A program made the translations under genes and the position numbers. Positions 613 through 7,072 of a stretch of DNA of 7,178 nt are shown one piece after another. A model generated the notes under the pieces. That model had not been told where the DNA came from. It ran no database searches and saw only the letters and a program-made list of their open reading frames with translations. Position 1 is the stretch's first letter; every line of letters begins with the position of its first letter. Where the stretch lies: positions 1,811-8,988 of the forward strand of contig DCDU01000054.1 in NCBI GenBank assembly GCA_002316585.1, in the 5' to 3' direction. The stretch comes from Firmicutes bacterium UBA1047 (GTDB taxonomy: Bacteria > Bacillota > Clostridia > Tissierellales > Sedimentibacteraceae).

Positions 613-1680
613 ATGGAAATACACGGAGCAGATATATATACAGCTTCCCTGATATCGGGCTTAAATGAAAATGACATAATCGATTTCTCATCAAATATCA
701 ACCCTTTGGGAATACCAAGGGATGTTGCGTCAGCGGCAGTAAATTCCATTGTGCATGCAGACAGATATCCTGATATAAATTCAAGAAAGCTTATTGATGC
801 CTTGTCCGAATATGAAAATGTACCGAAGGAATTTATATTTGTTTCTAACGGAGCGGCTGAATCAATATACAGAATATCAGCGTTTCTTAAGCCTAAAGAA
901 GGACTTGTTACTGCACCTGCCTTCAGTGATTATGAGAAATCAATGGAAGCAGTTGGGACAAATATAAGCTATTACTGCTTAAAAGAGGATAACAGCTTTA
1001 AAATTGAGGAGGATATTTTAAACAGCATCAATGAAAAAACAGACATTGCTTTCATATGCAATCCCAATAATCCCACAGGACAGTTAACGGAAAAAAGCAT
1101 ACTTGAAAAAATGCTTATAAAATTAAAGGAAAGAAATGCTTTTCTGGCTGTGGACGAATGTTTTTTAGATTTTGCGGAAAACTCCGAAAGCTGCAGCATG
1201 GTGGATTTGCTTGACAAATATGATAATTTGATTGTTATAAAAGCATTCACAAAAATATTTGCAATACCGGGAATACGTCTTGGTTATTGCATGTCATCAA
1301 ATAAGGAATTAATATATAAATTAAAATCAATAGGTGCGCCCTGGAATGTTTCAACCATTGCACAGGCTGCCGGAATTGCCGCCGTAAAAGAGAATGAATA
1401 CATAAAAAGAACTGTAGACTACGTTAAGGAGCAAAGAAATTATCTCTTTGACGAATTGAAGAAATTAGGCATTAAAGCCTTTGAATCACATGCAAACTAT
1501 ATTCTATTCAAAACAGATATTCCCGGCTTTAAGGAGCAAATGCTTAATAGGAAAATTTTAATAAGAAGCTGCTCCAATTATGTTAATTTAAGCGGAGAAT
1601 ACTATAGGATTGCGGTGAAAACAAGTGAAGAAAATAAAATATTCATTGAAAAACTAAAAGAAATAATGGAAAAAAGATGA
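613..1680 (+). CDS. cobD: L-threonine-O-3-phosphate decarboxylase (CobD), PLP-dependent
   Basis: This is a fold-type I PLP enzyme of the histidinol-phosphate aminotransferase-like group. It decarboxylates L-threonine O-3-phosphate to (R)-1-aminopropan-2-ol O-phosphate for the cobalamin nucleotide loop. From ATG 613 it is 355 residues, close to the Salmonella enzyme, and begins MEIHGADIY as the family does. Motifs seen are DFSSNINPLG (24-33), the NPNNPTG loop (150-156), D181 in VDECF (pyridine-nitrogen Asp), the PLP lysine K214 in AFTKIFAIPGIRLGY, and R332 near the C-terminus in a phosphate/carboxylate-binding position. The frame is open back to a TTG at 508, and ATG 601 is also in frame, but the residues before 613 do not resemble CobD and neither ATG has its own Shine-Dalgarno. 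Translation may be coupled to the short frame ending at 610. It lacks the C-terminal cysteine-rich extension found in some relatives; a stand-alone version lies at 4210-4491. Its stop overlaps the next start (ATGA). Confidence 0.9.
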   Translation: MEIHGADIYTASLISGLNENDIIDFSSNINPLGIPRDVASAAVNSIVHADRYPDINSRKLIDALSEYENVPKEFIFVSNGAAESIYRISAFLKPKEGLVTAPAFSDYEKSMEAVGTNISYYCLKEDNSFKIEEDILNSINEKTDIAFICNPNNPTGQLTEKSILEKMLIKLKERNAFLAVDECFLDFAENSESCSMVDLLDKYDNLIVIKAFTKIFAIPGIRLGYCMSSNKELIYKLKSIGAPWNVSTIAQAAGIAAVKENEYIKRTVDYVKEQRNYLFDELKKLGIKAFESHANYILFKTDIPGFKEQMLNRKILIRSCSNYVNLSGEYYRIAVKTSEENKIFIEKLKEIMEKR

Positions 1681-2708
1681 AAACAATACTTGTAATATTA
1701 GACGGTGCAAGCGAGGAAAAAATAGAAGGATTAAATTTTATGACTCCTATTGAATATGCAAGAACACCGACTCTTGATAAGCTGATAAAAACGGGAAAAT
1801 ACAGCAAAAGAATATTTTTTCCCAAAAACAGAATTCCCGACAGCTTATGCTGCATACTCACGATTTTAGGTGTAAATGAAAGCCTTATACCTGAAAACAG
1901 AGCATATTTTGAGGCATTGGCGGCAAATATCGAGATTAAGGACACCGAAGCTGCCCTTCGGTGCAATTTGGTGAGCATTAAGGACGGCAGGCTGGAATCC
2001 TTTAACGGAGAAGGCTTGACAAAGGCCGAAATGAAGGAATTCTCAAATAAAGTCATAACAAAAAATAATCTTAAATTTTACCACATAAGTGATTACAGAA
2101 ATATTTTGCTTATAGATAAAGAAAAGCTCGCAAGCAGACCGTACAATATGCCTCCTCATGAAAATATCGGAAAGTCGGTGGAAGTATTAAGGAGAAATAT
2201 AAATAATAATATTCTACGGGAATTTCTCCATGAAAACCAATTTTCAACAAAAGGAACAGATTATGCGTTTTATCCATGGGGTGTTTCGGAGAGGGCAGAG
2301 CTTAAGTCTTTTTTTGATATCCACAAAAAATCATGCTCCTGTGTCTGCAGCGCCGAAATCATGAAAGGAATTTCAAAGGCAATGAAAATAAGGCTGCCTG
2401 AATTAAAAAATGCAACATCTGACGTGGACACGGATTTAGGAGAAAAAGCAGAGGCCGTATTAAGTGAATTGCATACCCATGATGTTGTTATAGCTCACAT
2501 AAACGGGACAGATGAAGTATCTCACAGAAAAGATACATACGGCAAAATTAAATTCATAGAAAAAATTGACGAAAACTTTTTAAGTGTTATATATAAAAAT
2601 GTCAACAACACAAGGATAATAGTTTTAGCTGACCATCAGACAAGCTCGGTTACGGGAAAACATGAAACAGGTGCTGTTGATGTGGTAGAAGCAATTATAA
2701 AGGAGTAG
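1677..2708 (+). CDS. iPGM/ApgM-like alkaline-phosphatase-superfamily enzyme in the cobalamin operon (candidate threonine kinase or ribazole phosphatase)
   Basis: This 343-residue protein belongs to the cofactor-independent phosphoglycerate mutase family, archaeal (ApgM) branch. It opens with the VILDGAS metal-binding strand (D9). A serine at 56 (PDSLCCILTILG) sits where the catalytic phospho-serine lies. ALRCNLVSIKDGRL (about 93-106) matches the ApgM-type RxN segment. The two-metal set appears intact: D279 and H283 (NGTDEVSH), D319 and H320 (LADHQ), and H329. It is shorter than a typical ~400-residue ApgM, and the Ser motif departs from the usual GSD form, which argues against glycolytic mutase work. 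The start overlaps the cobD stop by ATGA and has no clear Shine-Dalgarno, implying translational coupling; cobQ follows after 3 nt. This family includes proposed homoserine kinases (ThrB2 type), so inferred roles are supplying L-threonine phosphate to CobD or removing phosphate from alpha-ribazole phosphate. The family call is firm; the substrate is not known. Confidence 0.82.
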   Translation: MKTILVILDGASEEKIEGLNFMTPIEYARTPTLDKLIKTGKYSKRIFFPKNRIPDSLCCILTILGVNESLIPENRAYFEALAANIEIKDTEAALRCNLVSIKDGRLESFNGEGLTKAEMKEFSNKVITKNNLKFYHISDYRNILLIDKEKLASRPYNMPPHENIGKSVEVLRRNINNNILREFLHENQFSTKGTDYAFYPWGVSERAELKSFFDIHKKSCSCVCSAEIMKGISKAMKIRLPELKNATSDVDTDLGEKAEAVLSELHTHDVVIAHINGTDEVSHRKDTYGKIKFIEKIDENFLSVIYKNVNNTRIIVLADHQTSSVTGKHETGAVDVVEAIIKE

Positions 2709-2711
2709 TAT

Positions 2712-4217
2712 ATGGCAAAGGTAATAATGATTCAGGGAACCACTTCAAATGCAGGCAAAAGCTTGACGGTTGCAGCACTTTGCAGAATTTTTAAGCAGGA
2801 TGGCTACAAGGCGGCTCCCTTTAAATCGCAAAATATGGCATTAAATTCATTTATAACAAAGGATGGGCTTGAAATGGGCAGAGCTCAGGCAATGCAGGCA
2901 GAAGCTGCGGGAATTGCTCCCGATATAAGAATGAATCCCATTTTATTAAAGCCCACGGGAGATACGGGCTCTCAAATTGTATTAAACGGCAAGGTTTTCA
3001 AGGATATGAGCGCAAGCAGGTATCATAACTATAAAAAAGAAATGATTCCTCATATTTTAAAAGCATACAATTCATTAGCGGATGAATATGATATAATTGT
3101 TATAGAAGGTGCCGGAAGCCCTGCGGAAATAAATTTAAAGGATATGGACATTGTTAATATGGGCATGGCTGAGCTTGTGGATGCACCTGTGGTAATAGTA
3201 GGCGATATTGACAGGGGAGGGGTATTTGCCTCCTTGGCGGGAACAATGCTTTTGCTGGACGAGGAAGAAAAGGCAAGAGTTAAGGGCTTTGTAATAAATA
3301 AGTTCAGAGGGGATGTAAACCTGCTCCTGCCCGGATTAAGAATGCTTGAGGAAATAACGAAGGTTGATGTACTGGGGGTTGTTCCCTACATGAATGTTGA
3401 CATAGATGATGAAGACAGCTTATCGGAGCGGTTGTCAAACAATGCCGCCGATACTGTAGATATTGCGGTAATAAGGCTGCCGAGAATTTCAAATTTTACG
3501 GATTTCAATGTATTTTCAATGATTGAAGGTGTTTCCCTGAGATATGTTTCAAATATAAGAGATTTCGGCAATCCCGACATGGTAATAATTCCGGGAACGA
3601 AAAATACAATTGATGATTTGAAATGGTTAAGACAGACAGGCATTGAAGTTAAAGTCAGAAGGCATGCCGATGAAGGGAAAGCCGTATTTGGAATATGCGG
3701 AGGATATCAGATGCTTGGTGAAACTATCAGCGACCCATGCTATGTTGAAGGCGGCGGAGAAATTGAAGGTCTCAAGCTGTTGAAAATTAATACGGTTTTT
3801 TCTAAGGACAAAACCACCACACAATACAGCGGTGTAATTAATGAATTAAGCGGCTTTTATGAGAAACTGTCGGGAATTTCCGTTGAAGGGTATGAAATAC
3901 ATATGGGACAGTCTCATATAATTGAGGGTTCACCCATGACCGCAGGAAGCAAGACTGAGGGATGCGTAAGCGGCAATGTGGCGGGAAGCTATGTCCACGG
4001 ATTTTTTGACAATTCTGAGGGGGTAAATGCGGTTATAGAAACATTGGCAGAGAGGAAAGGAATTTCATTAGGCGAGCTGACTAATTTTGACATAAAAAAA
4101 TACAAGGAAGACCAATATGATATTTTAGCGGATTGCGTGAGAAAATCATTGGATATGGATAAAATTTACGAAATTGCAGGCTTGAAAAATTGCGCAAAAG
4201 GAGGACGGTATGAATAA
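2712..4217 (+). CDS. cobQ: Adenosylcobyric acid synthase, glutamine-hydrolysing (CobQ/CbiP)
   Basis: This cytoplasmic ATP-dependent amidotransferase uses glutamine to amidate the b, d, e and g carboxylates of adenosylcobyrinic acid a,c-diamide. Its 501 residues match the family length. The N-terminal dethiobiotin-synthetase-like ATPase domain (about 1-230) begins with a P-loop GTTSNAGKS (9-17) and contains [20 protein letters not shown] and [15 protein letters not shown]. The C-terminal class I glutaminase domain (about 250-450) has the nucleophile C329 in [10 protein letters not shown], the GYEIHMGQ strand (393-400) and the triad His H429 in [10 protein letters not shown]. An AAAGGAG Shine-Dalgarno at 2699-2705 lies 6 nt before the ATG. 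The 3' end overlaps the next gene by 8 nt. In the pathway it feeds CbiB, whose other substrate comes from CobD. Nothing is missing from the active sites. It is also called cbiP, depending on the organism. Confidence 0.96.
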
Positions 4218-4491
4218 AGAAAAATCAGCACATAATACTACGAATTATAAGTTTTCGCAAAACAGAAGGTGTGAGTACTTTCCATGTCATAAAACCGAAG
4301 ACGAGGATAATTTCAATTGCCTTTTTTGCTATTGCCCCTTGTATGCATTAAAGGGAAACTGCGGAGGAAATTATTTGAAAAAAAACGGGATAAAGGATTG
4401 TACAAATTGCTTGATACCTCATTCTGCGGGAAGCTATGAAAAAATTATGTCTAAAATAAAGGATGTTATAGAATTAGGAAGCGATTTTTAA
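4210..4491 (+). CDS. Small cysteine-rich putative metal-binding protein linked to cobalamin synthesis
   Basis: This 93-residue cytoplasmic protein has eight cysteines, at 21, 26, 37, 40, 42, 51, 64 and 67, in the pattern [26 protein letters not shown] and DCTNCLIPH. It matches, from memory, the small cysteine-rich 'zf-like' family (PF04071), whose members occur alone or fused to the C-terminus of CobD-type decarboxylases in archaea and some Firmicutes. The pattern suggests a Zn or Fe site. It overlaps cobQ by 8 nt and has a strong AGGAGG (4199-4204) 5 nt before its ATG, so it is firmly inside the operon. Because the CobD here has no such domain, it may act with CobD as a separate chain. Other possibilities are a metal- or cobalt-handling role. 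No catalytic motif is visible. The family call is fairly sure; the function is unknown. Confidence 0.8.
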
Positions 4492-6037: not shown

Positions 6038-7072
6038 ATGAGGCAGATTAATATCAATGATGCTGTAGGGCAGGTGTTGTGCCACGATATCACTCAAATA
6101 ATCAAAGGTGAAACAAAGGATGTCGTATTTAAAAAGGGACACGTAATCAAAAAAGAAGATATTCCTGTTTTCCTTTCTGTAGGGAAGGAGCACATTTATG
6201 TGTGGGAGAAGCAGGAGGGTATACTTCACGAAAACGAAGCGGCTGAAATACTGTACGAGGTCTGTAAAAACAATTATATGAAGCCCACACCTGTAAAGGA
6301 AGGGAAAATTGAACTTGTAGCCGATATAGACGGCTTGTTTAAGCTTGATACAAAAAGACTGTATGAAATAAACAGTCTGGGAGAAATGATGATTGCAACA
6401 AGGCACGGAAATACTCCTGTAAAAAAAGGAGACAAGCTTGCCGGAACACGCATCATACCCCTTGTTATAGAAGAATATAAAATGGAAAGAGTTCAAGAAA
6501 TCGGCGCAGGTCAGCCCATAATGGAAATTTTGCCATTCAAGCATAAAAGGGTGGGTATCGTTACTACGGGCAGCGAGGTTTTTCACGGCAGAATCAAGGA
6601 TACCTTCGGACCTGTAATTATAGATAAATTCAGCGAGTTTGACACGGAAATATTAGGTCAGACAATTGTGGATGATGAGAAGGAAGATATTGCGCAGGCA
6701 GTATTGTCATATATAGAAAAAGGAGCGGATATTGTGGTTTGCACCGGAGGAATGAGTGTTGACCCGGATGACTGCACACCGGGAGCTATAAAAAGTACCG
6801 GAGCGGAAATAATCACATACGGAGCACCTGTACTTCCCGGAGCCATGCTTCTGGTAGCCTATTATGATTACAACGGCAAAAAAGTACCTGTATTAGGCTT
6901 GCCCGGCTGCGTAATGTATGCAAAGCGCACTATTTTTGATTTAATACTTCCAAGAATTATGGCTGATGAAAAAATAAACAAATCGGATATAGATAAATTA
7001 GGACAGGGCGGATTATGTCTGAATTGTGACGTATGCACCTATCCAAACTGCGGTTTTGGAAAAGGTAATTGA
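6038..7072 (+). CDS. MoeA-like molybdopterin-binding protein with C-terminal four-cysteine cluster
   Basis: This 344-residue cytoplasmic protein has a MoeA-type N-terminal region (about 1-165, beginning with INDAVGQVLCHDIT) followed by a MoCF/MogA-like molybdopterin-binding domain. Motifs seen are IVTTGSEV (174-181), CTGGMSVDPDDCTPGAI (235 onward) and LPGCVMY (288-294). In true MoeA the last motif is LPGNP, so Asn is replaced by Cys. The usual MoeA domain IV is absent. The chain ends instead with C327-x2-C330-x2-C333-x4-C338 (CLNCDVCTYPNCGFGKG), a likely metal or Fe-S ligand set. AGGAGG (6028-6033) lies 4 nt before the ATG. A promoter upstream makes it the likely first gene of a separate unit. 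From memory, such proteins occur near molybdenum hydroxylase (xanthine dehydrogenase-type) genes in Clostridia. A role in molybdenum-cofactor insertion or modification is inferred. It should not be called moeA without testing. Confidence 0.82.
   Translation: MRQININDAVGQVLCHDITQIIKGETKDVVFKKGHVIKKEDIPVFLSVGKEHIYVWEKQEGILHENEAAEILYEVCKNNYMKPTPVKEGKIELVADIDGLFKLDTKRLYEINSLGEMMIATRHGNTPVKKGDKLAGTRIIPLVIEEYKMERVQEIGAGQPIMEILPFKHKRVGIVTTGSEVFHGRIKDTFGPVIIDKFSEFDTEILGQTIVDDEKEDIAQAVLSYIEKGADIVVCTGGMSVDPDDCTPGAIKSTGAEIITYGAPVLPGAMLLVAYYDYNGKKVPVLGLPGCVMYAKRTIFDLILPRIMADEKINKSDIDKLGQGGLCLNCDVCTYPNCGFGKGN

Follow-up and report, generated by a model that had tools for sequence, protein, structure and literature searches.

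A predicted L-threonine kinase of the CbiU type encoded between cobD and cobQ in a Sedimentibacteraceae genome

The window analysed here is a stretch of 7,178 nucleotides from Firmicutes bacterium UBA1047 (contig DCDU01000054.1, positions 1,811 to 8,988; C173 in our numbering), and the contig belongs to a genome bin that is 62% complete. The gene order on the contig is cbiA, cbiB, cobD, an ORF of the phosphoglycerate-mutase family that we refer to as X, cobQ, a gene for a PF04071 protein and then Hsp33 and others; cbiA and the first part of cbiB lie 5′ of the window. X encodes 343 aa and runs from an ATG start to a TAG stop. The features of this operon within the window are:

1–507, + strand: cbiB, C-terminal part, adenosylcobinamide-phosphate synthase (PF03186, 184.6 bits)
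613–1680, + strand: cobD, L-threonine-O-3-phosphate decarboxylase (TIGR01140, 290.0 bits)
1677–1680, + strand: ATGA stop/start overlap of cobD and X (sequence)
1677–2708, + strand: X, CbiU-type protein with a predicted phosphoglycerate-mutase fold, predicted L-threonine kinase or phosphotransferase (sequence and predicted fold)
2712–4217, + strand: cobQ (cbiP), cobyric acid synthase (NF001989, 659.5 bits, cut-off 273)
4210–4491, + strand: small cysteine-rich protein whose gene overlaps the 3′ end of cobQ (PF04071, 96.6 bits)

The cobD frame is open from 508 and its inferred start, ATG 613, was picked against relatives; its TIGR01140 score is slightly below the cut-off of 290.55 but was the top one among 62 families. 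The initial annotation had X overlapping cobD by ATGA and ending 3 nt before cobQ, and both can be seen in the sequence (TAG stop to the cobQ start at 2712); the overlap suggests translational coupling. It had also described X as fused into the cobD–cobQ operon, which we rejected because the frames are separate and X is a gene of its own within the operon. As the 120 relatives listed show 46–92% identity and the order cobD-X-cobQ recurs, X is a real gene. An Rfam gathering scan of L007, whose contig begins inside cbiA, gave no riboswitch, and among five X-cluster loci scanned (some of them cut) a cobalamin riboswitch was present at one (L158, not L161, L163, L069 or L070). Reading of translated frames 3′ of the cob operon pointed to a molybdenum cofactor region, with a MoeA-like gene, then molybdate-transport-like genes and frames resembling moaA, moaC and MOSC (window 6038–7072, L007:9146–11795, L010:420–2461).

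Searches with Pfam matched X to Metalloenzyme (PF01676, 82.1 bits) and PhosphMutase (PF10143, 56 bits), and those with NCBIfam to apgM (TIGR00306, 218.3 bits, cut-off 320) and to the proposed homoserine kinase family TIGR02535 (193.7 bits, cut-off 446.3); since X fell under the cut-off for all six NCBIfam models matched, it is a clear member of none of them. Pfam found neither a GHMP kinase domain nor an ATP-binding family in X, and a histidine-phosphatase domain was found with neither Pfam nor NCBIfam. The AlphaFold model of X has a mean pLDDT of 94.2 and its closest PDB structure is PH0037 (2zkt; TM 0.75 on X, 22% identity). The Pfam match, the metal ligands, a Ser or Thr nucleophile and the predicted fold all fit the Metalloenzyme/alkaline-phosphatase superfamily. 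The codons that bear on the assignment are:

1701–1703, + strand: D9, metal ligand by homology (alignments)
1842–1844, + strand: S56, nucleophile by homology, replaced by Thr in two distant X proteins (alignments)
1959–1967, + strand: R95-C96-N97 (alignments)
2277–2279, + strand: W201, common to X and ThrB2-type rows, with R in its place in ApgM rows (residue counts)
2502–2504, + strand: N276, the X residue at a position with E in ThrB2-type and K in ApgM rows (residue counts)
2511–2525, + strand: D279 to H283, metal ligands by homology (alignments)
2631–2636, + strand: D319-H320, metal ligands by homology (alignments)
2661–2663, + strand: H329, metal ligand by homology (alignments)

In a 26-row family alignment D9, S56, R95, C96, N97, D279, H283, D319, H320 and H329 were invariant, and the metal/Ser set reported earlier (these residues less R95, C96 and N97) was confirmed at its positions, as was RCN at 95–97. 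Residue counts over 26 X, 28 ThrB2-type and 5 ApgM rows were then compared. The motif RRAGR is present in 5/5 ApgM rows and in 0/28 ThrB2-type and 0/26 X rows; we take it to have a substrate role in ApgM. Position 201 is W in every X and every ThrB2-type row (26/26 and 28/28) and R in 5/5 ApgM rows, position 140 is Y in 25/26 X and 28/28 ThrB2-type rows and H in 5/5 ApgM rows, and position 280 is E in 26/26 X, 28/28 ThrB2-type and 0/5 ApgM rows, while position 276 distinguishes all three groups, with N in the X rows, E in those of the ThrB2 type and K in those of ApgM. The initial annotation had read RCN at about 95–97 as a sign of the kinase branch; as a tendency this stood, with C96 in 24/26 X and 23/28 ThrB2-type rows vs 0/5 ApgM rows. 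The nucleophile is S in 24 of the 26 X rows and T in two (G279 and G546). The proteins of these two genomes (L068:9198–10127 and L163:4666–5739, 309 and 357 aa) are very divergent X proteins adjoining cobD, in which the nucleophile is Thr and the RCN motif reads RGS or RAS.

A tree of the same 59 rows was rooted on ApgM. The X rows formed a single clade (100/100), as did the ThrB2-type (98/96) and ApgM rows (100/99), so that in this phylogeny, of the kind proposed by the initial annotation with ApgM and ThrB2 references, X lies in a clade of its own and within neither of the others; a sister relationship of X and the ThrB2-type depends on the chosen ApgM root and on the residues. G279 and G546 are long branches that meet in the tree and their placement is unsure. 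The ThrB2-type rows are the 28 having loci, out of about 50 such matches in the class sample, and the ApgM rows are five remote loci from a single-sequence scan of genome contigs. Three ThrB2-type controls scored over the TIGR02535 cut-off (507.9 to 537.9 bits), and reading of translated frames showed hom, thrC or aspartokinase neighbours at 4/28 ThrB2-type loci. No cob query (that for cbiB being partly out of frame) matched within 1.5 kb of any of the 28.

These results bear on the reading of X as an ordinary phosphoglycerate mutase (ApgM type) or homoserine kinase (ThrB2 type) placed in the operon by chance. The top NCBIfam matches are indeed apgM, the PRK04200 mutase and the proposed homoserine kinase, and PH0037 is the nearest solved fold. 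However, every one of these scores is under its curated cut-off, X forms a separate clade, it lacks RRAGR and has W rather than R at position 201, and none of the 28 ThrB2-type loci had a cob neighbour within 1.5 kb. We regard this reading as highly improbable, and the distribution of X and the presence of ThrB, described below, count against it as well.

Profile A1 was used to search 147 genomes of the class, 199 of the order and 398 of the phylum, with matches counted up to E 1e-30 in the order and up to E 1e-52 in the phylum, and X-type matches were obtained in 23 distinct genomes over the three samples. In the class sample X was found at 581 and 564 bits in G000 and G047, the next match being at 175 bits. 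The initial annotation had considered that relatives might show no conserved link to cob genes; the link is kept in 22 of the 23 X-bearing genomes. Directly 5′ of X lies cobD in 21/23 (in G717 the contig starts inside X, with cobQ next), and directly 3′ lies cobQ in 20/23 (not so in G279 and G047; G255 is cut). At 18 relatives' loci, with starts assigned mechanically, the cobD–X junction was a 4-nt overlap in nine, an overlap of 1–29 nt in six, a 10-nt gap in one and indeterminate in two. The X gene of G047 (L067:7242–8294) is unlinked to cob and flanked by rng-like and obg-like genes (frames read), and that genome has a CobD match elsewhere and no PduX match. A broader profile search returned at least 160 proteins at E 1e-20 (best 7995 candidates scored). 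Names among the matches listed (120 of 160) include Dehalobacter, Sedimentibacter, Acidaminococcaceae, Oligoflexales and Clostridium sp., and where a function is annotated, phosphoglycerate mutase and alkaline phosphatase family protein predominate.

Within the genus of the window, 13/14 genomes with X and 1/11 without it have full-length CobQ (Fisher p 3.5e-5, kinship ignored), a co-retention that has to be read with the fact that adjacent genes can vanish together. The 11 genomes are those in which X was not found at E 1e-30, and 10 of them are without full-length CobQ, which argues against X being a plain mutase or homoserine kinase. About 50 genomes of the order without a listed full-length CobQ have proteins of ~280–310 aa that match approximately the first 240 CobQ positions at ~300 bits.

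Other slots of the pathway were searched in the X-bearing genomes. CobS was found in 18 of 19 genomes (17 with X, 2 without), and a histidine-phosphatase (CobC-like) frame follows cobS directly in 14 of the 16 X genomes having a CobS match, the window's own genome (contig C58) among them; in G195 cobS has no adjoining phosphatase frame and G255 is cut there. In the phylum-level sample a CobC-like gene lies inside the X cluster in G499, G522, G565 and G546, and the 18-kb region with X in G660 showed no CobC-like frame. TIGR03162 was the best family for 8/8 CobC-like proteins tested (90.7 to 172.2 bits; one of the eight over the cut-off of 162.9). A second CobC-like phosphatase (L010:5972–6589, C173; 154.6 bits, under the cut-off) lies ~13.5 kb 3′ of X. 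Canonical ThrB (TIGR00191, cut-off 168.25) was found at 236 to 261 bits in 10/10 X genomes scanned other than the window's, and these 10 genes adjoin a thrC-like frame (frames read), which speaks against X as the homoserine kinase. With CobC-like and canonical ThrB genes present, the CobC and homoserine-kinase jobs look filled.

This weighs against the alternative, put forward in the initial annotation, that X is an alpha-ribazole-5′-phosphate phosphatase replacing CobC, a reading that would work via a Ser56 phosphoenzyme and could also take in adenosylcobalamin 5′-phosphate as substrate. Such a role would suit the predicted alkaline-phosphatase superfamily fold with its complete metal set, the place of X within the nucleotide-loop operon, and the regions of G195 (no phosphatase frame by CobS) and G660 (none in 18 kb). 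It is disfavoured by the CobC-like gene after cobS in the window's genome and 13 more and by that in the X cluster of four more, and by TIGR03162 being the top family of the eight CobC-like proteins, though only one passes its cut-off; we consider it very unlikely. On the rival evidence, X was rejected as a CobC substitute, as a plain mutase and as a homoserine kinase.

For L-threonine kinase itself, PduX profiles A2 and A3 were built because NCBIfam gave no family over cut-off for the PduX query; A2 consists of enterobacterial rows, and A3 includes six of the eight relatives that score over 400 bits, the same eight giving 194 to 268 bits with A2 alone. The cob set comprised 56 genomes, namely those of the order with a full-length or contig-cut CobQ match together with G255, G279, G152 and G047, and CobD was present at E 1e-60 in 53 of them. 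PduX exceeded 400 bits (A3) in 8/56, and none of the 17 X genomes in the set had a strong match. The initial annotation had named pduX and cobC as genes to look for elsewhere in the window's genome; the CobC-like gene is there (C58) and no PduX match was obtained, an absence that is weak because the genome is 62% complete. The other 16 X genomes gave weak PduX matches of 38 bits or less, and those scanned were ThrB. In the phylum sample PduX was found in 120/398 genomes (E 1e-25 or better) and in 0/7 X genomes, the X and PduX draws, made with equal settings, being assumed to cover identical genomes (unmatched genomes were partly listed). The mutual exclusion of X and PduX was not significant (p 0.09 and 0.11). 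In 6 of the 8 PduX-positive relatives cbiC- and cbiD-like frames adjoin pduX (frames read), indicating that in those relatives the place of the kinase gene is indeed in a cob neighbourhood. G161 has two weaker PduX-like GHMP kinases, one by ATP-grasp and lyase-like genes (L065) and one by a peptide synthetase (L066), which are perhaps kinases of secondary-metabolite pathways.

As 31 of the 56 cob-set genomes are without both X and a strong PduX match, a missing kinase by itself proves little. G219 (L072, same genus) and G223 (L073, same family) have cbiB-cobD-cobQ without X and without a strong PduX match, and with the 31 genomes this implies that X is not needed wherever CobD works, or that other kinases exist. 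The same 31 genomes, in which threonine phosphate must often have another source, are consistent with X serving the aminopropanol branch otherwise, by phosphorylating (R)-1-amino-2-propanol or L-serine or by trimming a phosphorylated intermediate, with L-threonine phosphorylated elsewhere, and the gene context would be identical. However, cobD is directly 5′ in 21 of the 23 X genomes, the known CobD substrate is threonine phosphate (PMC7242693, available text), and the active site of X resembles the proposed amino-acid kinase branch, so that we think this role unlikely.

A gene of this kind has been described before. Dehre_1608, in the nucleotide-loop operon of Dehalobacter restrictus PER-K23, was proposed in 2015 to be an L-threonine kinase and named cbiU, the grounds given in the portion of the paper available being similarity to TIGR02535 and the absence of pduX (PMC4285132). 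Our literature search, from whose reach most subscription journals were excluded, found no assay of CbiU. L158 is likely the D. restrictus locus (a protein named Dehalobacter is 90% identical to its X), and its X shares the clade of the window's X (100/100), with 40% identity over 349 columns. The order cobD-X-cobQ is common to both, and PduX was found in neither, for the window's genome a weak absence at 62% completeness. The L158 protein is longer (374 vs 343 aa), and its cluster, unlike the window's, includes cobU-, cobS- and cobC-like genes, all in a single run preceded by the riboswitch. That X is a member of the proposed CbiU enzyme kind is a well-supported prediction from sequence. The names CblZ, CblX and CblY were rejected for X by description, cblZ and cblXY being tied to Actinobacteria and some Alphaproteobacteria in the text available from PMC8620254.

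With ThrB2/TIGR02535 X has in common the family, the metal and Ser set, R95, mostly C96, W201, Y140, E280 and the lack of RRAGR, but it is ~50 residues shorter, belongs to another clade, has N276 rather than E and scores 193.7 bits against a cut-off of 446.3. X is linked to cob genes and ThrB2 to thr genes; co-occurrence and co-localization of ThrB2 with threonine genes are described in the accessible part of PMC9026213. Mutants in BT2402 (ThrB2) require threonine, yet BT2402 failed to complement an Escherichia coli thrB mutant (personal communication), both according to the excerpt available of PMC7311316, so that the kinase chemistry of the ThrB2 branch is itself only putative. ApgM, the archaeal-type iPGM represented by PH0037, shares with X the predicted fold, metal ligands, Ser nucleophile, R75 and R95, whereas X is without RRAGR and without R at 201 and is 22% identical in the structural match. 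PduX, the L-threonine kinase of Salmonella, resembles X in the predicted reaction and in frequent location among cob genes, but is a GHMP kinase (PF00288), which X is not, and the two never co-occur in the genomes examined. BluE of Rhodobacterales, set beside X here by description, is likewise an L-threonine kinase that serves this step without being an orthologue (PMC7242693 and PMC8123684, as far as the text was available).

Taking context, clade, active-site signature and the accounting of slots together, L-threonine kinase is favoured over a CobC substitute, as the initial annotation had guessed, although the exclusion of PduX that would go with it is not significant. From its sequence, X probably phosphorylates L-threonine to L-threonine O-3-phosphate. 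In this predicted reaction D9, S56, D279, H283, D319, H320 and H329 would hold two metal ions, activating Ser56; Ser56 would accept a phosphoryl group from a donor, and the resulting phosphoserine would pass it to the hydroxyl of L-threonine. The neighbouring CobD, the predicted user of threonine phosphate, would then give aminopropanol phosphate for CbiB. For related TIGR02535 proteins phosphoenolpyruvate has been suggested as donor by the TIGRFAM curators (PMC7311316, in the part available). It is conceivable, and we put it forward tentatively, that the phosphoglycerate-mutase superfamily has an amino-acid branch, with CbiU as one arm and ThrB2 as the other, in which a phosphoryl group passes, free of nucleotides, from a phosphoenolpyruvate-like metabolite via phosphoserine to L-threonine or homoserine; the B12 loop might in this way be fed without an ATP-dependent threonine kinase.

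The idea of an L-threonine kinase for this kind of protein is already in print, having been published in 2015 for the Dehalobacter homologue (PMC4285132, available portion). New here are that X forms a distinct clade spread over several families, that it coexists with CobC and that it has short (309 aa) and Thr-nucleophile variants. Many predicted cobamide producers have a gap at the step that supplies L-threonine phosphate (31/56 in the cob set of the order, with neither X nor a strong PduX match). If the L-threonine kinase reading is true, X would be a third protein family, beside PduX and BluE, for making L-threonine phosphate, database names such as ‘phosphoglycerate mutase’ would be wrong for the X clade, and the proposed ThrB2 chemistry would be strengthened.
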